Shown here: piece after piece, positions 11,235 through 22,351 of the stretch
Position numbering within the stretch: position 1 is the first letter of the stretch
How the letters are laid out: every line of letters begins with the position of its first letter
Assembly: GCF_030817535.1 (NCBI RefSeq)
Contig: NZ_JAUSZL010000002.1
Span: 2,418,001-2,482,000, forward strand
DNA: 64,000 bases
Direction of reading: 5' to 3'
DNA from: Streptomyces sp. V3I8
Lineage (GTDB): Bacteria > Actinomycetota > Actinomycetes > Streptomycetales > Streptomycetaceae
Made by a program: the position numbers and the translations under genes
The notes under the pieces: model-generated
What the model saw: only the letters and a program-made list of their open reading frames with translations
The model's database searches: none
What the model was told of the DNA's origin: nothing

Positions 11235-13685
11235 ATGGCCCGCCGCAGCACGAAGACCCCGCCTCCGGACGACTTCGAGGAGCGCATCCTCGACATCGAC
11301 GTCGTCGACGAGATGCAGGGCTCCTTCCTCGAGTACGCGTACTCGGTCATCTACTCCCGAGCCCTGCCGGACGCCCGCGACGGCCTCAAGCCCGTGCACC
11401 GCCGCATCGTCTACCAGATGAACGAGATGGGGCTCCGGCCCGACCGCGGCTACGTGAAGTGCGCCCGCGTCGTCGGCGAGGTCATGGGTAAGCTCCACCC
11501 CCACGGCGACGCCTCGATCTACGACGCCCTGGTCCGCCTGGCCCAGCCCTTCTCCATGCGGCTGCCCCTGGTCGACGGCCACGGCAACTTCGGTTCGCTG
11601 GGCAACGACGACCCGCCGGCCGCCATGCGGTACACCGAGGCGAGGATGGCCGACGCCACCTCCCTGATGACGGAGTCGATCGAAGAGAACACGGTCGACT
11701 TCAACCCGAACTACGACGGCCAGGAGCAGGAGCCCGCGGTCCTCCCGGCCGCGTATCCGAACCTCCTGGTCAACGGTGCGTCGGGCATCGCGGTCGGTAT
11801 GGCGACCAACATGGCGCCGCACAACCTCGGCGAGGTGATCGCCGCCGCCCGCCACCTGATCCGCCACCCCGGCGCCGACCTCGACACGCTCATGAAGCAC
11901 GTCCCCGGCCCCGACCTGCCCACCGGCGGCCGGATCGTCGGCCTGTCCGGGATCAGGGACGCGTACGAGAAGGGCCGCGGCACCTTCAAGATCCGTGCGA
12001 CGGTCGCCGTGGAGAACGTGACGGCGCGCCGCAAGGGCCTCGTCGTCACCGAACTGCCCTTCACCGTCGGCCCGGAGAAGGTGATCGCCAAGATCAAGGA
12101 CCTGGTCAACGCGAAGAAGCTGCAGGGCATCGCCGACGTCAAGGACCTCACCGACCGGGCGCACGGCCTGCGCCTGGTCATCGAGATCAAGAACGGCTTC
12201 GTACCGGAGGCCGTCCTGGAGCAGCTCTACAAGCTGACGCCGATGGAGGAGTCCTTCGGCATCAACAACGTGGCGCTGGTGGACGGCCAGCCGCTCACAC
12301 TGGGCCTCAAGGAACTGCTGGAGGTGTACCTCGACCACCGCTTCGAGGTCGTGCGCCGCCGCAGCGAGTTCCGCCGTACGAAGAAGCGCGACCGGCTGCA
12401 CCTGGTCGAGGGCCTGCTCGTCGCGCTGCTGGACATCGACGAGGTCATCCGCCTCATCCGCTCCAGCGACAACTCCACCCAGGCCAAGCAGCGCCTGATC
12501 GAGCACTTCTCGCTGAGCGAGATCCAGACGCAGTACATCCTGGACACGCCGCTGCGCCGGCTGACCAAGTTCGACCGCATCGAGCTGGAGACCGAGCGCG
12601 ACCGGCTGAACGGTGAGATCGACGAGCTGACCGGCATCCTGGAGTCGGACTCCGAGCTGCGCAAGATGGTGTCGGGCGAGCTGGCCGCGGTGGCGAAGAA
12701 GTTCGGCACCGACCGGCGTACGGTGCTGCTGGAGTCCGCCGGTTCCACCACCTCGGCCGTCCCGCTGCAGGTGGCGGACGACCCGTGCCGGGTGCTGTTG
12801 TCGTCGACGGCGCTGCTGGCGCGCACGGCCAACGGCGAGCCCTTCGGGGAGGACGGGGCCAGGCGCGTCAAGCACGACCTGATCGTCTCCGCCGTTCCGG
12901 CGACGGCGCTGGGGGAGATCGGCGCGGTCACGTCCACCGGACGGCTCCTGCGCATCAACGTCATCGACCTCCCGCAGCTGCCCGAGACCGCCGCGGCCCC
13001 CAACCTCTCCGGGGGTGCGCCGATCTCGGAGTTCCTGAGCCTGGAGGGCGACGAGCAGGTGGTCTGCCTGACGACGCTCGACGAGTCCTCGCCGGGCCTC
13101 GCGCTCGGTACGCAGCAGGGTGTGGTCAAGCGCGTGGTGCCGGACTACCCGTCCAACAAGGAGGAGCTGGAGGTCATCACCCTCAAGGACGGTGACCGGA
13201 TCGTCGGCGGGGCCGAGTTGCGCACGGGCGAGGAGGACCTGGTCTTCATCACCGACGACGCGCAGCTGCTGCGCTACCAGGCGTCCCAGGTCCGCCCCCA
13301 GGGCCGGCCCGCGGGCGGCATGACGGGTGTGAAGCTCACGGACGGCGCCAAGGTGATCTCGTTCACGGCGGTCGACCCGGCCGTGGACGCGGTGGTCTTC
13401 ACCGTGGCGGGCTCGCGCGGCACGCTGGACGACTCGGTCCAGACGACCGCCAAGCTGACCCCCTTCGACCAGTACCCGCGCAAGGGACGCGCCACGGGCG
13501 GTGTGCGCTGCCAGCGGTTCCTGAAGGGCGAGGACTGCCTGAGCCTGGCGTGGACGGGCCCCGCTCCGGCACGCGCCGCCCAGAAGGACGGCACGCCCGC
13601 GGAGCTTCCGGAGATGGACCCGCGCCGCGACGGCTCGGGAGTCTCCCTGGCGAAGACGGTCTCGGTGGTGGCAGGCCCGGTCTAG
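11235..13685 (+). CDS. parC: DNA topoisomerase IV subunit A / second GyrA-like protein
   Basis: Type IIA topoisomerase A subunit, 816 aa. It cuts and passes DNA strands together with the B subunit ParE encoded at 25537-27660. Near the N-terminus are [22 protein letters not shown] and the catalytic Tyr133 in AMRYTEARM. The GyrA-box-like C-terminal pinwheel (repeated LLRxN, VxxxG blocks) covers roughly residues 500-790. The ATG at 11235 ([17 protein letters not shown]) gives the standard N-terminus; AAGGAG lies 11 nt upstream, a longish spacing. The stop TAG shares the palindrome CTAG with the stop of the convergent CobW gene. Parc/GyrA assignment rests on the pairing with the separate ParE-like gene. 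Confidence 0.93.
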
Positions 13686-14845
13686 AGCACGCCTTCCGTC
13701 TGCGCCTCCCGCTCCGGTAGGCCCGGTTCCTGTACGCCCGGTTCCTCTACATCCTGTTCTTGTACGTCCGATTCCTGTACGTCCGGTTCCTGTACGTATC
13801 TGAGGACGCCCCACATGCCGCGCTCATCGGCGTGCGGGGCGTCGTCCTTGCACGCCTCCAGTTCCTTGCCGAGCGCGAGGGTGTCGATGCCCGAGCCGAT
13901 GAGCACGAGCTGGGTGAGGCGCTCCTCCCGCTCACCCGGGGCCCAGGGCTCCGGATAGAAGCGCAGGAAACGGCCCACGGCGTGGACGGCGTACCGGTTG
14001 CGGGGGTCGGACGGACCGAAGTCGACGTACCCCTTGATGCGGTACAGACCGTCGGACCTGCTGTCGAGGAAGCCCATCAACCGCCGGGGCGCGAGGGGCA
14101 CGTCGGAGGTGAAGGAGAGGGATTCGTAGGCGGAGTGCAGATGCCGGCGGTGCTCGTCGGCCCCGCCGGACCCGCCGGGCTCATCCCTTCCCTCGGGCCG
14201 GTGGAGGTCGTCGAAGGAGAGCTGGCCGATACGGTCCCCGGCCGGCCGGCAGTCGAAGAGGAACTCGGGGTCGATCCGTCCGTACGAGGCGGACACGACG
14301 GCGGCACCGCCGGCGAGCGTCCGCACGAGCCCCAGCACCCGGTCGGGATCCGCCGCCCGGTCCGTCTTGTTGACGACGACGAGGTCGGCGACGGCGAGGT
14401 GCCGGTCGATCTCGGGGTGCTTCTCGCGGGTGGCGCCGAACTCTGCGGCGTCGACGACCTCGATGAGGCCGCCGTAGACGATGTGCGGGTTCTCGCTGGC
14501 GAGGAGCATCTTCACCAGCTCCTGCGGCTCGGCGAGGCCGCTCGCCTCGATGACGATCACGTCCATCCGGGCGGAGGGGTGGGCGAGCCGGTCCAGGTAG
14601 AGGTCGAGCTCGCTGGAGTCGACGGCACAGCACAGGCACCCGTTCCCGAGGGAGACGGTGGAGTCGCCGAGCGCCCCGGCCACGGCCATGGCATCGATCT
14701 CGATGGCCCCGAAGTCGTTGACGACAGCCCCGATACGACTGCCTCCACTGCGGTGCAGGAGATGGTTGAGCAGGGTGGTCTTACCCGACCCGAGGAAGCC
14801 GGCGAGGACGAGGACGGGGATCTGGCGGGGGCTCGCCTGACTCAA
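13682..14845 (-). CDS. CobW/COG0523-family GTP-binding metallochaperone
   Basis: P-loop GTPase of 387 aa in the COG0523 family, which hands metals (zinc, cobalt) to target proteins. Motifs are the Walker A GFLGSGKTT (residues 16-24), the metal-binding CLCC (Cys70, Cys72, Cys73), the switch/Walker B-type VIEASGLAEP, the NKTD guanine specificity motif and a C-terminal CobW_C domain (LYRIKGYVDF, then WGVLRYV). Some Streptomyces members are Zur-regulated, but I found no clear Zur box upstream. The last 30 residues are a degenerate pentapeptide repeat rich in VQEP/VQES (DNA 13724-13798), outside the folded domain. Its stop overlaps the parC stop on the opposite strand. Confidence 0.9.
   Translation of the reverse strand: MSQASPRQIPVLVLAGFLGSGKTTLLNHLLHRSGGSRIGAVVNDFGAIEIDAMAVAGALGDSTVSLGNGCLCCAVDSSELDLYLDRLAHPSARMDVIVIEASGLAEPQELVKMLLASENPHIVYGGLIEVVDAAEFGATREKHPEIDRHLAVADLVVVNKTDRAADPDRVLGLVRTLAGGAAVVSASYGRIDPEFLFDCRPAGDRIGQLSFDDLHRPEGRDEPGGSGGADEHRRHLHSAYESLSFTSDVPLAPRRLMGFLDSRSDGLYRIKGYVDFGPSDPRNRYAVHAVGRFLRFYPEPWAPGEREERLTQLVLIGSGIDTLALGKELEACKDDAPHADERGMWGVLRYVQEPDVQESDVQEQDVEEPGVQEPGLPEREAQTEGVL
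13724..13798. repeat. Five 15-bp tandem repeats in the 3' end of the CobW gene
   Basis: Five 15-bp units (consensus cggttcctgtacgtc) run from 13724 to 13798 and encode the acidic pentapeptide tail. The period is a multiple of three, so the frame is kept. Confidence 0.9.
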
Positions 14846-15765: not shown

Positions 15766-16005
15766 TCACGCGTCGGGGATGTCCGCCTTGGCTCTGAGAA
15801 GGGTCTCGCGTGTGATCACGACGATGCGTTCGTAGTCGGCACGGGAGGCGTCCCGAGGGAGATCCTCATCCAGTGAGTCGGTGAGATCCGTACCGATGAT
15901 TGCGAAGCGTCCGTCGGACAATTCGAAGATGTCCGGGCAATTTGCTCCGCCTGCGCTGCCTCGATCGCGTGGAGATGCACCGAGTCGGCGGATAATCTGA
16001 CTCAC
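15766..16005 (-). CDS. Small conserved hypothetical protein
   Basis: A 79-aa protein of unknown function. The middle CPDIFELSDGRFAIIGTDLTD resembles a family of small Streptomyces proteins often encoded beside HTH or DUF397-type genes; no catalytic motif is visible. I prefer the GTG at 16005 (VSQIIRRLG), preceded by AGGA within an A-rich leader, over the longer frame up to 16050. It is convergent with the DUF6082 gene and lies in a stretch (about 15.2-16.3 kb) of lower GC than the rest of the window. Confidence 0.7.
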   Translation of the reverse strand: MSQIIRRLGASPRDRGSAGGANCPDIFELSDGRFAIIGTDLTDSLDEDLPRDASRADYERIVVITRETLLRAKADIPDA

Positions 16006-16282
16006 TGTTGTTTTTTCCTGTCTCACGGTCCGGCCGGTGCACGGTGACACACCGACTCAAATCCGCCCCTGCGAGTTGCCGGGACACCGGACCATTGCAC
16101 CTTGCGGCGAGGTGCCCAACAGGCAGCTCGTCGAGGGCGTTGGAGCAACGTAAACCTCCGGCGCAGGGAAAGGCTGGGGGTTTATCAGTTCGTTACCGCC
16201 TCGACGTTCACTCACGCGAGTCGGACCGAAATGATACTGAAGTTGACCTTTTTGAGCTTACCGGTTGCAGCGTGACATTTCT

Positions 16283-17473
16283 TCACGCCGTCGGCACCAC
16301 AACCGGCGCCCCCGGTCCCACGTACCGCGCCGCCGGCCTGATGATCTTCGGGTCGTCCGCCTGTTCCAGGATGTTGGCGCTCCAGCCGATCACGCGGGCC
16401 GCCGCGAACGTCGGGGTGAACATCTCCCTCGGGAGTCCGCACAGTTCCATGACGACGCCCGCGTAGAACTCCACGTTGGTATGCAGCTCACGCCCCGGCT
16501 TGAGCTCCGCCAGGATCGCCTCCACCCGGCGCTCGACCTCGACGGCGAAGTCGACCAGCGGACCACCGAACCCCTGCGCGATCTCGCGGAGCATGCGCGA
16601 GCGCGGGTCCTCCGTGCGGTAGACGGGATGACCGAAGCCCATGATCCGGTCGCCCGCCAGAACCCGTTCACGGATCCAGGAGTCGATGCGGTCGGGCGTC
16701 CCGATCGCATCGAGGGTGTCCAGCGCCCGGCTCGGCGCACCACCGTGCAACGGACCCGAAAGCGCCCCCACCGCCCCGACCAGGCAGGCCGCCACATCCG
16801 CACCCGTCGACGCGATCACCCGAGCAGTGAATGTTGACGCATTGAATCCGTGGTCAATGGTTGAGATCAGGTACTGCTCCACAGCCCGCACCCGGGCGGG
16901 CTCGGATTCCGAACCCGTCATCATGTAAAGGTAGTTGGCGGCATATGACAGGTCGTCCCGCGGCTCCACCGGATCGAGACCCCTCCCGAGCCGGTGCAGT
17001 GCCGTCAGCAGCGTCGGCACCGCCGCCGATGCCGCGAGCGCGTCCGCCCGGCGCTGTTCGCCGTCGAGGTCGTACACGGGCCGGAAGCCGCGCGCCGCGC
17101 CGAGCAGCGACAACGCGGTCCGCATCCCGGCGAGCGCCCCCGACCGGCCGCCGGCCGCGGCGATCGCGGGCAACGCGTCCCGCACCTCCCGCGGCAGCCA
17201 CCGCAGCTCCCCGATCCGGGCGGCGAACGCGGAACGCTGTGCCGCGTCCGGCAGTTCACCGTGCACCAGCAGGTGCCACACGTCCTCGAAGCCACGGCTG
17301 CGCGCGAGTTCGACGGCCGAGTACTGGCGGTAGTGGTAGAAGCCTTCCAGACCCCTGACGTCACCCAGCTCGGTGTCGGTGACGACGACGCCCGCGAGTC
17401 CTCGCGGTACGTCGACGGGGGTACCGGCGGACGCACCCGCGGTCCTACCGGCCGCGACCCGATCGATCGACAT
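16283..17473 (-). CDS. Citrate synthase/methylcitrate synthase homologue with Glu at the catalytic Asp position
   Basis: A 396-aa type II-like citrate synthase fold that would condense an acyl-CoA with a 2-oxo acid. The two active-site His motifs are present (PLHGGAP and MGFGHPVYRTEDPRSRM). The third catalytic residue, normally Asp in NVDFY, is Glu here (HTNVEFY, about residue 335). I recall the same change in other actinobacterial homologues, so it may mark a subfamily with a different substrate or altered activity. The ATG at 17473 is supported by GAAGGTGG ten nt upstream. It is divergent from an HTH-citrate synthase fusion, across a 136-bp AT-rich spacer with several TTGA/TCAA palindromes. 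Confidence 0.9.
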   Translation of the reverse strand: MSIDRVAAGRTAGASAGTPVDVPRGLAGVVVTDTELGDVRGLEGFYHYRQYSAVELARSRGFEDVWHLLVHGELPDAAQRSAFAARIGELRWLPREVRDALPAIAAAGGRSGALAGMRTALSLLGAARGFRPVYDLDGEQRRADALAASAAVPTLLTALHRLGRGLDPVEPRDDLSYAANYLYMMTGSESEPARVRAVEQYLISTIDHGFNASTFTARVIASTGADVAACLVGAVGALSGPLHGGAPSRALDTLDAIGTPDRIDSWIRERVLAGDRIMGFGHPVYRTEDPRSRMLREIAQGFGGPLVDFAVEVERRVEAILAELKPGRELHTNVEFYAGVVMELCGLPREMFTPTFAAARVIGWSANILEQADDPKIIRPAARYVGPGAPVVVPTA

Positions 17474-17529
17474 GTCTGCCACCTTCAACTCGTTGTCCGG
17501 ACTCGCTGACCTACGCTCGTTTCTTGTAC

Positions 17530-17590
17530 TTGATTCGACTGTCCATGCTTGACTCAAATATTGTCAATGTTGATTTAGTCAATATGTAAT
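17530..17590. promoter_or_regulatory. AT-rich palindromic operator region between the two citrate-synthase genes
   Basis: In a strongly AT-rich spacer several TTGA/TCAA half-sites cluster: TTGACTCAA (17549-17557, perfect palindrome), TTGTCAA (17561-17567, perfect palindrome), and the longer inverted pair ATATTG (17558-17563) with CAATAT (17580-17585). The local composition contrasts sharply with the rest of the window. It is probably the binding site for a regulator, and the HTH of the adjacent fusion gene is the obvious candidate (inference). Confidence 0.6.
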
Positions 17591-17609
17591 CCGCGGATAC
17601 GGTGACGCC

Positions 17610-18869
17610 ATGAAGGATCAGGAAGCCGCCCCTACGCACGAAAGGCGGCGGATCAGCACCAGGGAAGCCGCCGAGCTGCTCGGTGTGAAGCCGGAGACGG
17701 TATACGCGTACGTGAGCCGCGGCCGGCTCGGCAGCCGGAGCAGTCCGGGCGGCCGGGGCAGCACGTTCGACCCCGGGGAGGTCGAAGCCCTCGCGCGCCG
17801 CAGCAGGCGCGAGCCCGCGGGGAGTGCGCCCGCGGTGGGCGGCCTCCCCGTCCGCACCCGGATCACCTTGATCGACGAGGACCGCTACTACTTCCGGGGC
17901 GTCGACGCGACGGAACTCGCCGCACACCACTCCTACGAAGAGGTCGCGGAGTGGCTCTGGACGGGCGTGCTGCGCCCCGGCGCCACCTTCACCGCCCCCG
18001 CGGCCTCCGTCGAGGTGGCACGCCGCGCCGTCGACGCGCTGCCCGAGCACACAAGTCCCACCGACCGGCTCCGCGTGGCCGCCATCGCCGCGGCGACCGC
18101 CGATCCCTTGCGGTTCGACCTCTCCGAAGAGGCCGTGCTGGGAACGGCCCGCACCCTGATCCCCACGCTCGTCGCCGCCCTGCCGCCCAAGTGTTACGGC
18201 CACACGGACGACGGTCCGCTCGCCCACCGGCTGTGGACCCGGCTCAGCGGACGTGAGGCACCGGAGGCATCCCTGCGGGCCCTGGACACGGCCCTCGTCC
18301 TGCTCGTCGACCACGACCTGGCCGCCTCGACCCTGGCGGTCAGGGTGGCCGCCTCGGCCCGCGCGCACGCGTACGCCGCCGTCTCGGCGGGTCTCGGCGT
18401 CCTGGAGGGCCCTCTCCACGGAGCGGCCAGCGGTCTGGCGCACCGGATGCTCCTCGAGGTCCTCGACCACGGCACGGCAGCTCCGGTGATCGCCGACGAG
18501 CTCCGTGCCGGACGCCGCGTCCCGGGACTCGGCCACCGCCTCTACCAGGGCGAGGACCCGCGCGCGCGGGCGCTGTTCGCCCTCCTCGAGGAGATGCCCG
18601 GTGCCCGTCCCGCCCTGGCGGCGGCTCAGGACGTCGTGGCCACCGCGGCCCGTCACGTCCCCCTGCACGCCAATATCGATCTGGCGCTCGCCGTCCTCAC
18701 GGTCTCGTCCGGTATGCAGGCCTCGGCGGGCGAGACGATCTTCGCCGTGGCACGGACGGCCGGATGGATCGCCCACACCCTGGAGGAGTACGGCGAGGAA
18801 CCCCTGCGGATGCGCCCGAGCGGACACTACGTAGGGGAGAGGCCACCCCGGCCGCTTCCGGAGCAGTGA
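17610..18869 (+). CDS. Citrate synthase homologue fused to an N-terminal MerR/excisionase-like HTH
   Basis: A 419-aa fusion. Residues about 14-65 are a helix-turn-helix of the MerR/excisionase type (RRISTREAAELLGVKPETVYAYVSRGRLG). Residues about 80-410 are a citrate-synthase domain that keeps all three catalytic positions: His in PLHGAASG, His in GLGHRLYQGEDPR and Asp in HANIDLALAV (about residue 357). The combination suggests either an enzyme that regulates its own locus or a citrate-synthase fold used as a ligand sensor. It is divergent from the Glu-type homologue across a palindrome-rich spacer. The ATG at 17610 is the only start that keeps the HTH complete. Whether it has enzymatic activity cannot be told from sequence. 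Confidence 0.9.
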   Translation: MKDQEAAPTHERRRISTREAAELLGVKPETVYAYVSRGRLGSRSSPGGRGSTFDPGEVEALARRSRREPAGSAPAVGGLPVRTRITLIDEDRYYFRGVDATELAAHHSYEEVAEWLWTGVLRPGATFTAPAASVEVARRAVDALPEHTSPTDRLRVAAIAAATADPLRFDLSEEAVLGTARTLIPTLVAALPPKCYGHTDDGPLAHRLWTRLSGREAPEASLRALDTALVLLVDHDLAASTLAVRVAASARAHAYAAVSAGLGVLEGPLHGAASGLAHRMLLEVLDHGTAAPVIADELRAGRRVPGLGHRLYQGEDPRARALFALLEEMPGARPALAAAQDVVATAARHVPLHANIDLALAVLTVSSGMQASAGETIFAVARTAGWIAHTLEEYGEEPLRMRPSGHYVGERPPRPLPEQ

Positions 18870-18921: not shown

Positions 18922-19872
18922 GTGAGTACGTGCGCGAAGGTCTCACGAGACCTGGAAGAGCCCCTCGCGGGAACTGCCGCCACGGCGAGGACGTGGTTGC
19001 TGGTCGAACAGCCAGGTCCCTGGGGCGCCGACGCGCTGACCTCGAGCCACCTGGATCCCGCACTGGGCCGCGCCCTGGAGAAGGCGGCCGAGGGCACCGG
19101 CGTGCGCATCGCACTGATCCGGCGCCCGGGGCGTCACGCCGACCGCCGCACGATCGCCGAGCGCCAGGTGTACGCGGCCCACACCGCTCCGGGGAACGTA
19201 TGGCTGCGCAACGCCGTCACATCAGACCCCGAACAGCTGCTCGGCCTTGATTTCGCCGCACTCGGCGGGGGCCGGCCCGGCACCTTCGACAAGGCTCTCG
19301 GTGGTCGCCCCCACCCCGGCGGCCCGCTCGCCCTCGTGTGCACCAACGGCAAGCGCGACCGGTGCTGCGCCCTCCTCGGCCGTCCCCTCGCCGCCGAACT
19401 CGCCGCCTCCGGAGTGGACGGCGCGTGGGAGGTCACGCACCTGGGAGGCCATCGCTTCTCGCCCACCCTCCTCGTACTGCCGTTCGGCTACGCCTATGGG
19501 CGCGCCGAGGCGCACGCCGTCAAGGAAGTCCTCCAGGGCGTACGGGAAGGCCGTGTCGTCACCGAGGGATGTCGTGGCGGTTCCGCGTGGGAGCGGCCCG
19601 GTCAGGCCGCCGAGCTGGCCGTGCGGGCGGCGGTGTCCGAGGACGCGGCCGACGCGCTCGACGTGATCCGTACCGAGGGCGGGGAGCCCCGCTGGGAGGT
19701 GACGGTCGCCCATGCCGACGGCCGCCGCTGGCTCGTCACGGTCGCCCAAGGCGCCTCGTCGCCGCCTCGGCCGGCGAGCTGCGGCTCGGTCCTGGGTTCG
19801 CCGGCGCGGATGGACGTGCTGGCGGTGCGCGAGCTGCCGCGTACTACCGGCATGGATCCCGCGCCCCGCTGA
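18922..19872 (+). CDS. Sucrase/ferredoxin-like (thioredoxin-fold) family protein
   Basis: A 316-aa protein of the Suc_Fer-like family, related to thioredoxin-like [2Fe-2S] ferredoxins. Visible are the N-terminal CAKVSRDLEEPLAGTAATA motif, the Cys-rich VCTNGKRDRCCALLGRPLA (about residues 140-158), where cluster ligands are expected, and HLGGHRFSPTLLVLPFG. In actinobacteria these proteins are often iron-regulated and associated with iron uptake or release of iron from siderophores. Here an iron box lies directly before the GTG start, supporting induction under iron starvation. The C-terminal 80 residues are variable. It is 52 nt downstream of the HTH-citrate synthase and has its own control site. 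Confidence 0.88.
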   Translation: MSTCAKVSRDLEEPLAGTAATARTWLLVEQPGPWGADALTSSHLDPALGRALEKAAEGTGVRIALIRRPGRHADRRTIAERQVYAAHTAPGNVWLRNAVTSDPEQLLGLDFAALGGGRPGTFDKALGGRPHPGGPLALVCTNGKRDRCCALLGRPLAAELAASGVDGAWEVTHLGGHRFSPTLLVLPFGYAYGRAEAHAVKEVLQGVREGRVVTEGCRGGSAWERPGQAAELAVRAAVSEDAADALDVIRTEGGEPRWEVTVAHADGRRWLVTVAQGASSPPRPASCGSVLGSPARMDVLAVRELPRTTGMDPAPR

Positions 19873-19937
19873 CCAGGCGTTTCGACGAGATCCACGCCAC
19901 ACCTCCGACAGGCCCTCGCACCGCTCCCCGTACCGTC

Positions 19938-21674
19938 ATGGGTATGAGTTCCCCTCCTCCTGCCCGACGACTGCGCCTCGGGATGCCGAAGCGGATGTTC
20001 TCGCAGGTGCTGCTGATGCAGGTGGCGATCGCCGCCGGAGTCGCCGTGCTCGCGACGGGCCTGTTCCTCGCGCCGCTCAGCGATCAGCTGGACGACCAGG
20101 CGATGCGTCGCGCGCTCGCGATCGCGCAGACCACGGCGGCGCAGCCGCAGCTCGCCGAGGAACTCGTGTCGACGGGTCCCTCCGCGGACGGTCCCGTACA
20201 GGCCGAGGCGGAGCGGGTCCGAAGGGCCAGCGGGGCCGAGTACGTCGTGGTCATGAACATGCGCGGGGTGCGCTGGTCGCACACCCATCCCGCCGAGATC
20301 GGCAGGCGCGTCTCCACCGACCCGCGGGAGGCGCTGGCCGGCCGGGAGGTCATGCAGATCGACGACGGCACGCTGGGCCGCTCGGCGCGCGGCAAGGTGC
20401 CGTTGCGCGACGCCGACGGCCTGATCGTCGGTGCGGTCTCGGTCGGTATCGAGTACGACAGCGTGCGTGCCCGTCTGATCCATGCGATCCCGGGGCTCTT
20501 CGCCTACGCGGGCGGTGCCCTGGCCGTCGGCGCGCTGGCGGCCTATCTGATCTCGCGACGGGTGCAGCGGCAGACCCGTGACCTGGCCTTCTCCGATATC
20601 GCCGGGCTCCTGGCGGAACGTGAGGCCATGCTGCACGGCATCAGGGAGGGCGTGGTCGCGCTGGACCGCGACGGCAGGATCCGGTTGCTCAACGACGAGG
20701 CACGGCGGCTGCTCGGCCTCGGCGACGAGGCCGTGGGGCAGCCGCTCGGCGCGGTGCTCGGTGAAGGACGCACGACCGATGTGCTGGCCGGGACCGTCGG
20801 CGGAACCGATCTGCTGACCGTCCGCGGGCAGCGGGTCCTGGTCGCGAACCGTATGCCGACCGATGACGGCGGGGCCGTCGCCACCCTGCGGGACCGCACG
20901 GAGCTGGAGCAGCTGGGCCGCGAGCTCGACTCCACCCGCGGCCTGATCGACGCCCTGCGCGCGCAGGACCATGAGCACGCCAACCGGATGCACACCCTGC
21001 TCGGTCTGCTGGAACTGGAGATGTTCGACGACGCCGTGGAGTTCGTCGGCGAGGTGGTCGGCGATCACAGGGCCACCGCGGAACAGGTCACCGAGAAGAT
21101 CCACGACCCGTTGCTCGCCGCCCTCCTGGTGGGCAAGGCCACCGTCGCGGCGGAACGTGCGGTGGCCCTGCGGATCTCCGGGGGAACGCTGTTCCCCGAC
21201 CGGCTGGTCGACCCGCGCGGGCTGGTCACGATCGTCGGGAACCTCGTCGACAACGCGCTCGACGCCGTCGCGGGCACCCGCCACGCGCGCGTGGAGGTCG
21301 AACTGCGGGCGGAAGGGCGTACGGCCGTGCTCGAGGTACGTGACACCGGGCCGGGGATCCCGGCCGGGCAACGCGAGCTGGTGTTCACGGACGGCTGGTC
21401 CACCAAGGAACCGCCGGCCCACCGCGGGCGCGGGATCGGACTGTCGCTGGTGCGCAGGCTCGCCGAGCGGCAGGGTGGCAGCGCGCGGGTCACCGAGGCG
21501 GAGGGCGGCGGCGCGGCGTTCACGGTCGTGCTGCCGGAGGCACTGGCCGAGCCGGGACCCGCGTCCGCACCGGGATCCGTGTCCCCACCGGGGCGCGCAT
21601 CCGGGGCACCCGCACCGGAGCACGGGTCCGCATCCGCGGAAGCCGCCACGGCCACCGAGGAGGGATCGCGATGA
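19938..21674 (+). CDS. CitA/DcuS-type sensor histidine kinase
   Basis: Membrane sensor kinase of 578 aa. TM1 is at about residues 20-42, followed by an extracytoplasmic PAS/Cache-like domain with the family feature GRSARGKVPLRDADGLIVGAVSVG. TM2 is at about 178-200, then a cytoplasmic PAS (residues 215-310). The phospho-acceptor His345 lies in AQDHEHANRMHTLLGLLEL, the CitA/DcuS type. The ATP-binding domain has N box IVGNLVDNALDAV, DTGPGIP and GRGIGLSLV. CitA/DcuS kinases detect citrate or C4-dicarboxylates outside the cell. The last 40 residues are low-complexity. Start at ATG 19938 (MGMSS) or the in-frame ATG at 19944. It overlaps its response regulator by 4 nt. Confidence 0.93.
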   Translation: MGMSSPPPARRLRLGMPKRMFSQVLLMQVAIAAGVAVLATGLFLAPLSDQLDDQAMRRALAIAQTTAAQPQLAEELVSTGPSADGPVQAEAERVRRASGAEYVVVMNMRGVRWSHTHPAEIGRRVSTDPREALAGREVMQIDDGTLGRSARGKVPLRDADGLIVGAVSVGIEYDSVRARLIHAIPGLFAYAGGALAVGALAAYLISRRVQRQTRDLAFSDIAGLLAEREAMLHGIREGVVALDRDGRIRLLNDEARRLLGLGDEAVGQPLGAVLGEGRTTDVLAGTVGGTDLLTVRGQRVLVANRMPTDDGGAVATLRDRTELEQLGRELDSTRGLIDALRAQDHEHANRMHTLLGLLELEMFDDAVEFVGEVVGDHRATAEQVTEKIHDPLLAALLVGKATVAAERAVALRISGGTLFPDRLVDPRGLVTIVGNLVDNALDAVAGTRHARVEVELRAEGRTAVLEVRDTGPGIPAGQRELVFTDGWSTKEPPAHRGRGIGLSLVRRLAERQGGSARVTEAEGGGAAFTVVLPEALAEPGPASAPGSVSPPGRASGAPAPEHGSASAEAATATEEGSR

Positions 21675-22351
21675 TCGAGGTACTGGTCGTGGACGACGAC
21701 GTCCGGGTCGCCCAGGTCAACGCCGCCTACGTGGAGAAGGTCGCCGGCTTCCACGTGGCGGGCGAGGCGCACTCGGCGGCGGAGGCTCTGCGGCAGGTGG
21801 AGGCGCTGCCTCGGCTGGATCTGGTGCTGCTCGACCACTATCTGCCCGACGGGACGGGCCTCGCGGTCGTACGGGAGATGCGGCGGCGCGGTCACCAGAC
21901 CGACGTGATCATGGTGACCGCGGCGCGGGACATCACCACGGTCCAGGCGGCGATGCGGCACGGCGCCCTGCAGTACCTGGTGAAACCGTTCGCCTTCGCC
22001 GGGCTCCGCGCGAAGCTCGAGGCGTACGCCGAGCTGCGCCGCACCCTCGACGGCGGCGGCGAGGCCGAGCAGGCGGAGGTCGACCGGATCTTCGGCGCGC
22101 TTTCGGCGGGCACCGAGCCGAACCTGCCCAAGGGGCACTCCCCCACCACCGCGGAGGCCGTGCGCCAGGCGCTGATGAACGCGCAGGGCCCCCTGTCCGC
22201 CCAGGAGCTCGCCGACCGGACCGGCCTCAGCCGGCAGACCGCCCAGCGCTACCTGAAGCTCCTGGAGCGCACCGGGCGGGCCACGCTGAGCCTGAAGTAC
22301 GGCGACGCGGGCCGCCCCGAACACCGTTACGTCTGGGCGACCCGCGCCTGA
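21671..22351 (+). CDS. CitB/DcuR-type response regulator
   Basis: Cytoplasmic regulator of 226 aa paired with the kinase just upstream (4-nt ATGA overlap). The receiver domain has the acidic pair at Asp8/Asp9, phospho-acceptor Asp55 in VLLDHYLPDG, Thr in MVTAARD and Lys in YLVKPF. A linker follows, and the C-terminal HTH at about residues 160-215 (LSAQELADRTGLSRQTAQRYLKLLERTGRA) is of the CitB type. It probably controls genes for uptake or use of a carboxylate. The convergent SSS-family symporter and the nearby citrate-synthase pair are natural candidates, but no shared binding site is evident. Confidence 0.93.
   Translation: MIEVLVVDDDVRVAQVNAAYVEKVAGFHVAGEAHSAAEALRQVEALPRLDLVLLDHYLPDGTGLAVVREMRRRGHQTDVIMVTAARDITTVQAAMRHGALQYLVKPFAFAGLRAKLEAYAELRRTLDGGGEAEQAEVDRIFGALSAGTEPNLPKGHSPTTAEAVRQALMNAQGPLSAQELADRTGLSRQTAQRYLKLLERTGRATLSLKYGDAGRPEHRYVWATRA

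Follow-up and report, generated by a model that had tools for sequence, protein, structure and literature searches.

A predicted one-component regulator with a citrate synthase fold and its candidate operator beside a Glu-type citrate synthase gene in Streptomyces sp. V3I8

The window considered here, a stretch of 64,000 nucleotides from Streptomyces sp. V3I8 (contig NZ_JAUSZL010000002.1), contains a divergent pair of citrate synthase homologues. The product of one gene carries a helix-turn-helix (HTH) domain ahead of its citrate synthase domain (HTH-CS), and the product of the other has a glutamate at the position of the catalytic aspartate (Glu-CS). We consider it likely that the fusion is a one-component regulator that uses the citrate synthase fold as its sensor, and that it acts on a predicted operator in the shared spacer and on the divergent Glu-CS gene. 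A conserved operator-like element, the co-inheritance of the two genes and the lack of the element at loci from which one of them has been lost together point to the fusion as very probably the regulator of the divergent enzyme, which agrees with what a sequence-only reading of this DNA had proposed.

The divergent pair and the spacer between its genes

The features on which the argument relies are given below, with their positions in the window.

16283..17473, minus strand: Glu-type citrate synthase (Glu-CS) gene, 396 residues, ATG start, NCBIfam PRK12350
17530..17547, plus strand: conserved box TTGATTCGACTGTCCATG beside the Glu-CS gene, resembling the reported MtrA site
17549..17583, plus strand: extended element (TTGACTCAAATATTGTCAA...) of many Streptomyces spacers, with an extra TTGA half-site at the left
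17564..17583, plus strand: predicted operator core TCAATGTTGATTTAGTCAAT (TCAA-N2-TTGA-N5-TCAA)
17598..17603, plus strand: putative -10 hexamer TACGGT, 6 nt ahead of the fusion ATG (by eye)
17610..18869, plus strand: HTH-CS fusion gene, 419 residues, ATG start, predicted one-component regulator
17655..17801, plus strand: HTH_17 domain of the fusion, residues 16-64 (Pfam, 31.3 bits, cut-off 27), with the conserved stretch TVYAYVSRG
17850..18818, plus strand: Citrate_synt domain of the fusion, residues 81-403 (Pfam, 215 bits)

Both open reading frames and their Citrate_synt domains were borne out, and the divergent pair described by the earlier reading stands; a mechanical list of open reading frames also holds a longer alternative for the minus-strand gene, with a TTG start at 17557. 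The genome (9,319,798 bases in 4 contigs) has five places with PF00285. The plus-strand product indeed joins an HTH to a citrate synthase domain, since HTH_17 and Citrate_synt both pass in Pfam, and this one-component architecture, with a DNA-binding and a sensor-type domain in one chain, was found with Pfam in the window protein and in three others. The fusion scores below the gathering score of MerR (PF00376; 20.3 versus 28.2 bits), below the cut-off of the excisionase HTH model TIGR01764 (24.6 versus 28.8 bits), and below the cut-off of every one of the 23 NCBIfam models listed.

By its domain, its fold and its active-site residues the fusion belongs to the citrate synthase family (PF00285). 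Its catalytic positions are His235, His270, His309 and Asp357, plus Arg318, Arg382 and Arg402; these seven are invariant across 27 aligned HTH-CS proteins, so that the catalytic His/His/Asp triad attributed to it is intact. In the larger set of loci described in the next section, the active-site residues are retained in 115 to 118 of the 118 alignable fusions, and the HTH positions Thr30, Tyr32, Ser36 and Arg37 in 119 to 121 of 121. The AlphaFold model of the fusion has a mean pLDDT (predicted local distance difference test) of 87, and its fold matches citrate synthases. Among the matches listed, close relatives bear citrate synthase names.

The spacer of 136 bp had been described as AT-rich and dense in palindromes, and this description is accurate: it has 47% G+C versus 71% for the window, and contains overlapping TTGA/TCAA inverted repeats. 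The strict pattern TCAAYRTTGA-N3..11-TCAAY has a single match in the 9,319,798-base genome, at 17564-17583, and the reversed pattern has 0 matches in the same genome. The spacers of the Streptomyces pairs have in common, by eye, TTGAC...TGTCAATATTGATTGAATCAAT, and the element covers what is probably the -35 region of the Glu-CS promoter, where a minus-strand TTGACA is recognised by eye at the TGTCAA of the spacer. On the other side, the position of the putative -10 hexamer suggests that the fusion mRNA would be leaderless.

The distribution of the pair within Streptomyces was followed in 61 genomes. The fusion is present in 36 of them (the sets were compiled manually, and a weak match in G010, with 35% identity, was removed from an initial 37) and the Glu-CS in 36, both are present in 35, and neither in 24; the module is thus common in Streptomyces and not universal. 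Of the 35 genomes that have both genes, 33 carry the strict element at the locus, and 0 of the 26 others do; as for the two exceptions, G031 has one mismatch and G047 has TC in place of the Y-R centre. A control with the reversed pattern gave a single match over the 61 genomes together (in G019). Natural losses follow the same rule. The Glu-CS is missing from two genomes with the fusion, G013 and G251, and the element is absent upstream of the fusion in both, with the -10-like box before the ATG kept or nearly kept (GATACGGTG and GATACCGTG). In G027, which has the Glu-CS without the fusion, the element is absent at the locus, and GACTGTCCATG, a part of the MtrA-like box, is retained. The strict pattern occurs nowhere in the whole genome of G013 or G027, and G251 was checked at the locus. 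When the Glu-CS stands in another orientation (G032), it has its own exact copy of the element, and the copy at the fusion shows one mismatch. The genome G012 was considered as a counter-example, with the Glu-CS apart from the fusion, and was set aside: there the Glu-CS is split by a rearrangement (L174), the N-terminal piece remains opposite the fusion, with an exact element between them, and the rest lies elsewhere.

The element across HTH-citrate synthase loci

Among 296 sampled genomes of the phylum, divergent pairs were found far outside Streptomyces, and a plasmid of A. fabrum has the same head-to-head pair. For a broader comparison 121 HTH-CS loci were assembled, mostly from Actinomycetota and Pseudomonadota: 40 from Streptomyces, 19 from other Actinomycetota, 6 from plasmid records (regions chosen from the 60 listed of 179 records) and 56 from a one-genome-per-species scan, of which the best 80 loci were listed, so that the set is a sample. 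The 56 scan loci are mostly proteobacterial, with some from Myxococcota/Deltaproteobacteria and Actinomycetota and one contig each labelled Gemmatimonadetes and Anaerolineales. In all 121 loci the alignment to the fusion begins at residue 25 or before; repeats of the same place (L002, L004, L075, L076-L087), matches starting past residue 25 (e.g., L049) and proteins with no HTH were excluded.

The element TCAANNTTGA-N5..9-TCAA is found exactly within 250 bp upstream in 96 of the 121 loci and with at most one mismatch in 107; the remaining classes are 11 loci with one mismatch, 7 with two, and 7 with four or more or none. Shuffled upstream stretches (n = 2,420, 20 per locus, with base pairs dealt anew, which is not a strict dinucleotide shuffle) gave 0 exact elements and 7 with one mismatch. 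Likewise, 36 control citrate synthase genes without HTH, namely 24 other loci of the one-genome-per-species scan and 12 further citrate synthase loci, gave 0 exact elements and 3 with one mismatch, all 3 of them Firmicutes loci; these controls include two Glu-CS genes that have no whole fusion pair adjacent (L068 and L069, the latter split). The orientation of the element is identical in 106 of the 107 loci. The spacing between the half-sites varies with lineage: mostly 5 for Streptomyces and for the f29 genomes, mostly 8 for the f18 genomes and mostly 9 for Proteobacteria.

The element with at most one mismatch accompanies 88 of the 89 fusions that have a divergent citrate synthase within 700 bp, and 19 of the 32 that do not (Fisher p 4e-8). 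In the partner, the catalytic residue is Glu in 84 of the 84 readable cases (5 were unreadable). The distances between fusions and those between their partners run closely together (Mantel r 0.97 for 82 loci, and 0.92 for the 47 outside Streptomyces), a value that 0 of 2,000 permutations reach.

Another aspect of the family is that the gene facing the fusion is at times of another kind. In Pseudoxanthomonas the fusion and the element face prpB (532.8 bits versus 353) followed by prpC (704.2 versus 550), and prpB-prpC are, by likeness, also the facing genes in Stenotrophomonas and in a Lysobacteraceae genome. A homocitrate-synthase-like facing gene was detected with Pfam in Asanoa (L152) and in one f20 genome (L041/L077), and no NCBIfam cut-off was reached for it; in a second f20 genome (L040) the facing gene is homocitrate-synthase-like by likeness, and the element has 2 mismatches. 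The facing gene encodes a family III CoA-transferase in Paraburkholderia (L096 was the locus tested) and in Rubricella (L141, element with 1 mismatch). In the Burkholderia cepacia plasmid L092 there is no element at the fusion, and an exact copy of the N9 type was found at 1382, about 2.9 kb upstream. Thus the element tracks the fusion, and among the predicted targets several make or handle citrate-like acids.

Some members of the family deserve mention in their own right. The L092 element lies between a D-glycerate dehydrogenase gene and a gene run SDR-MFS-VOC-HTH-CS that ends with the fusion. On a Cupriavidus plasmid (L091, 4992-6236), the Asp and two of the catalytic His are lost from an HTH-CS protein that is without a good operator and is possibly a degenerate or repurposed member.

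The strict pattern was also searched in 28 genomes and matched in 26. The two that gave none, G146 and G373, carry one-mismatch sites at the locus (L045 and L141), and the reversed control matched once over the 28 genomes together (in G369). A similar further match recurs in three Paraburkholderia (L195 at 4201, L196 at 3945 and L197 at 4232), and in two of them it directly precedes a gene with, by eye, a LysR-type-like start. Such further matches were considered as possible members of a regulon; no HTH-CS or citrate synthase was found in the four stretches inspected, and the matches were taken as likenesses rather than as targets.

Proposed mechanism and alternative readings

From these observations we infer a mechanism that includes DNA binding by the fusion, its ligand, its dimer geometry and the sign of control. 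The N-terminal winged HTH would bind the TCAA/TTGA operator in the spacer, and the C-terminal citrate synthase domain, with its active site intact, would sense a substrate or product of the reaction of its target, such as oxaloacetate, acetyl-CoA, citrate or 2-methylcitrate. A dimer, which is usual for the citrate synthase fold, would set the two HTH heads on the inverted repeats. The fusion would control the divergent Glu-CS gene and probably its own gene too. It is probably a repressor: repression relieved by the ligand is the likelier sign because of the overlap, noted above, between the element and the probable -35 region of the Glu-CS gene. As a tentative extension, and a rather doubtful one, the fusion could be both a working citrate synthase and a transcription factor, in which the catalytic cycle, substrate-opened or closed, sets the hold on the operator; the flux through this isozyme would then decide the synthesis of the Glu-type enzyme, and a single operator grammar, with the lineage-dependent spacing given above, would define a class that crosses phyla and governs the making of citrate-like acids.

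Several observations weigh against a regulator acting through this element. The binding of MtrA to a probe from the shared spacer has been reported in S. coelicolor (PMC12323332, in the accessible part of the paper), and it implies that other regulators also act at the spacer. The catalytic residues conserved in the fusion would also fit a plain enzyme. At least two mismatches are present in 14 of the 121 loci, and 13 of these 14 have no citrate synthase partner within 700 bp; among the 14, no site is known except in L092 and in L048, where the Glu-CS, about 1.1 kb away, has an exact element next to it. Six Streptomyces (G002, G011, G014, G021, G051 and G059), three of them without the pair, have matches at other places in the genome, and further matches occur in 7 of the 28 genomes scanned (G356, G358, G360, G362, G363, G365 and G370). 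The loci share ancestry, so their counts are not independent and the tests measure association and not independent events. As to the sign, the case for a repressor is weak: a -10-like (TATAAT-like) hexamer lies in the operator region of 17 of 38 N9-type loci (45%) versus 36% of shuffled spacers, and repression through an overlap of the -10 box and the operator is thus unsupported in the N9 class.

The meaning of the glutamate in the minus-strand enzyme was considered separately. Its product matches Citrate_synt from residue 25 to 381 (PF00285, 359.8 bits, cut-off 27) and PRK12350 (NF009005, 343.1 bits, over the cut-off of 332), a model that is also passed by the partners of A. fabrum (454.6) and of a Gemmatimonadetes contig (348.6). 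It had been described as keeping both His motifs, with HTNVEFY where the catalytic Asp is expected, and the alignment agrees: His243 and His282 are retained, and Glu335 lies within HTNVEFY, which aligns to NVDFY, NVEFY or NLDWF of solved citrate synthases. The placing of the Glu at the catalytic Asp position is therefore correct. From this residue it had been proposed that the enzyme may act on a different acyl-CoA or 2-oxo acid, and this we regard as unlikely. In its favour, fusions of the same family precede prpB-prpC (2-methylcitrate synthase) in Xanthomonadaceae-type genomes and a homocitrate-synthase-like gene in Asanoa, from which it follows that the family handles several citrate-like products; moreover, in one Gemmatimonadetes contig the Glu-CS is paired with a leuB-type dehydrogenase gene, which lies between the operator and the Glu-CS gene (L110, 613-2798). 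However, the same Glu is present in the B. subtilis citrate synthase 2c6x, which we take to be CitA, in M. tuberculosis CitA (8gi7 and 8glb) and in the M. bovis structure 6wgy, which holds citrate, and the aligned His and Arg positions of the Glu-CS read as in citrate synthases. Being ordinary in known citrate synthases, the Glu gives no argument for another substrate, and the claim that it signals one was not supported. The genome itself has a second Glu-type citrate synthase (L003, G000:C2:3886731-3887744, with TNVEFWA), close to M. tuberculosis CitA and with no HTH-CS element upstream, and the idea of the Glu as the mark of a new reaction was dropped, since this residue is common both in solved structures and in this second enzyme.

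A further alternative, of low probability in our judgement, is that the fusion is a plain citrate synthase isozyme, with an HTH that is vestigial or otherwise used, and that the element belongs to the promoters or to a global regulator (MtrA or GlnR, for example). The retained catalytic residues agree with this, as do Streptomyces papers in which both genes appear as putative citrate synthases and MtrA is reported to bind between them (PMC12323332, part of the text), and the reported control of citA and citA4 of Saccharopolyspora by GlnR (PMC10704036, likewise in part). Against it, the Glu-CS promoter of G027, which has no fusion, lacks the element and yet keeps part of the MtrA-like box; the element accompanies the fusion in distant groups, also ahead of unrelated target genes; and the HTH positions are conserved almost without exception, as given above. 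Still less probable is that a third, unlinked regulator that tracks the pair binds the element, with the fusion as its co-factor or inactive there, since, even if binding by the fusion is a prediction from sequence, such a regulator would have to follow the pair through Actinomycetota and Pseudomonadota and into the few loci from other phyla, and the element lies next to the fusion gene in 107 of the 121 loci.

Related systems, neighbouring genes and significance

The likely regulator proposed here may be compared with systems of several kinds. In B. subtilis, CitA is faced by the divergent LysR-type regulator gene citR, whose product has a LysR substrate-binding domain. This minor Glu-type citrate synthase with a dedicated regulator gene facing it resembles the window pair; in contrast to the fusion, CitR has no citrate synthase domain. 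PrpQ is said to be a predicted propionate regulator of Xanthomonadales, with a MerR-like and a citrate synthase domain, encoded before the prp genes. If this is right, it resembles the Pseudoxanthomonas prp locus in its domain architecture and in its place ahead of prp genes. BirA, NadR and PutA are enzyme-fold regulators, in which, as in BzdR and in the fusion, a DNA-binding head is fused to a domain of enzyme origin that senses a metabolite; these four use other folds, whereas the sensor of the fusion is a citrate synthase with its catalytic set kept. BzdR has been described as an enzyme-fold one-component regulator (PMC3602430, in the part available). No relevant text on PrpQ was found in the literature searched, and RegPrecise 3.0 (PMC3840689) gave no match for PrpQ or citrate. 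No paper on an HTH-citrate synthase regulator was among the matches listed in that search, which largely excluded subscription papers and is not proof of absence.

The gene order around the fusion is also found in S. coelicolor, where SCO5831 lies by the sucrase/ferredoxin-like gene SCO5830 and the two-component pair SCO5829/SCO5828, in the order SCO5831-SCO5830-SCO5829-SCO5828 (PMC9739823, from the part consulted). In the window, the fusion is followed by a sucrase/ferredoxin-like gene (18922-19872), a sensor kinase gene (19917-21674, plus strand) and a response regulator gene (21671-22351, plus strand). From this shared order, the fusion is probably the orthologue of SCO5831 (citA3) and the Glu-CS that of SCO5832 (citA4). 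Both S. coelicolor genes have been termed putative citrate synthases, and the MtrA site is reported as TTGACTTAACTGTCCA (PMC12323332). The accessible portion of that source places the site in the shared spacer, describes the products as citrate synthases or citrate-synthase-like, and mentions no HTH, operator or cross-control. Thus the gene pair by name in S. coelicolor, the binding of MtrA to the spacer and enzyme-fold regulators as a kind are already known.

An sCache_3_2 sensor domain is present in the sensor kinase, which among NCBIfam models matches DcuS/MalK best (347 bits, under the cut-off of 520); the two-component pair by the locus may be an external sensor of di- or tricarboxylates beside an internal one. 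On the other side, an open frame of 94 residues with no Pfam match (15766-16050, minus strand) adjoins the Glu-CS gene, and a CobW-type GTPase gene (13682-14845, minus strand; PF02492 and PF07683) lies near the pair.

If the regulator reading is right, a regulator class that reaches across phyla may have been hidden under the name of an enzyme, given that the close relatives listed are named citrate synthase. It would be a direct case of an enzyme fold that has come to sense the pathway to which it belongs, retaining its active site and having a defined predicted operator and a clear target, and it would explain why a second, Glu-type citrate synthase is kept under separate control in bacteria. 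The trio of fusion, citrate synthase gene and DNA signal recurs in distant bacterial groups, which suggests that a family of gene switches made from a metabolic enzyme has been overlooked.

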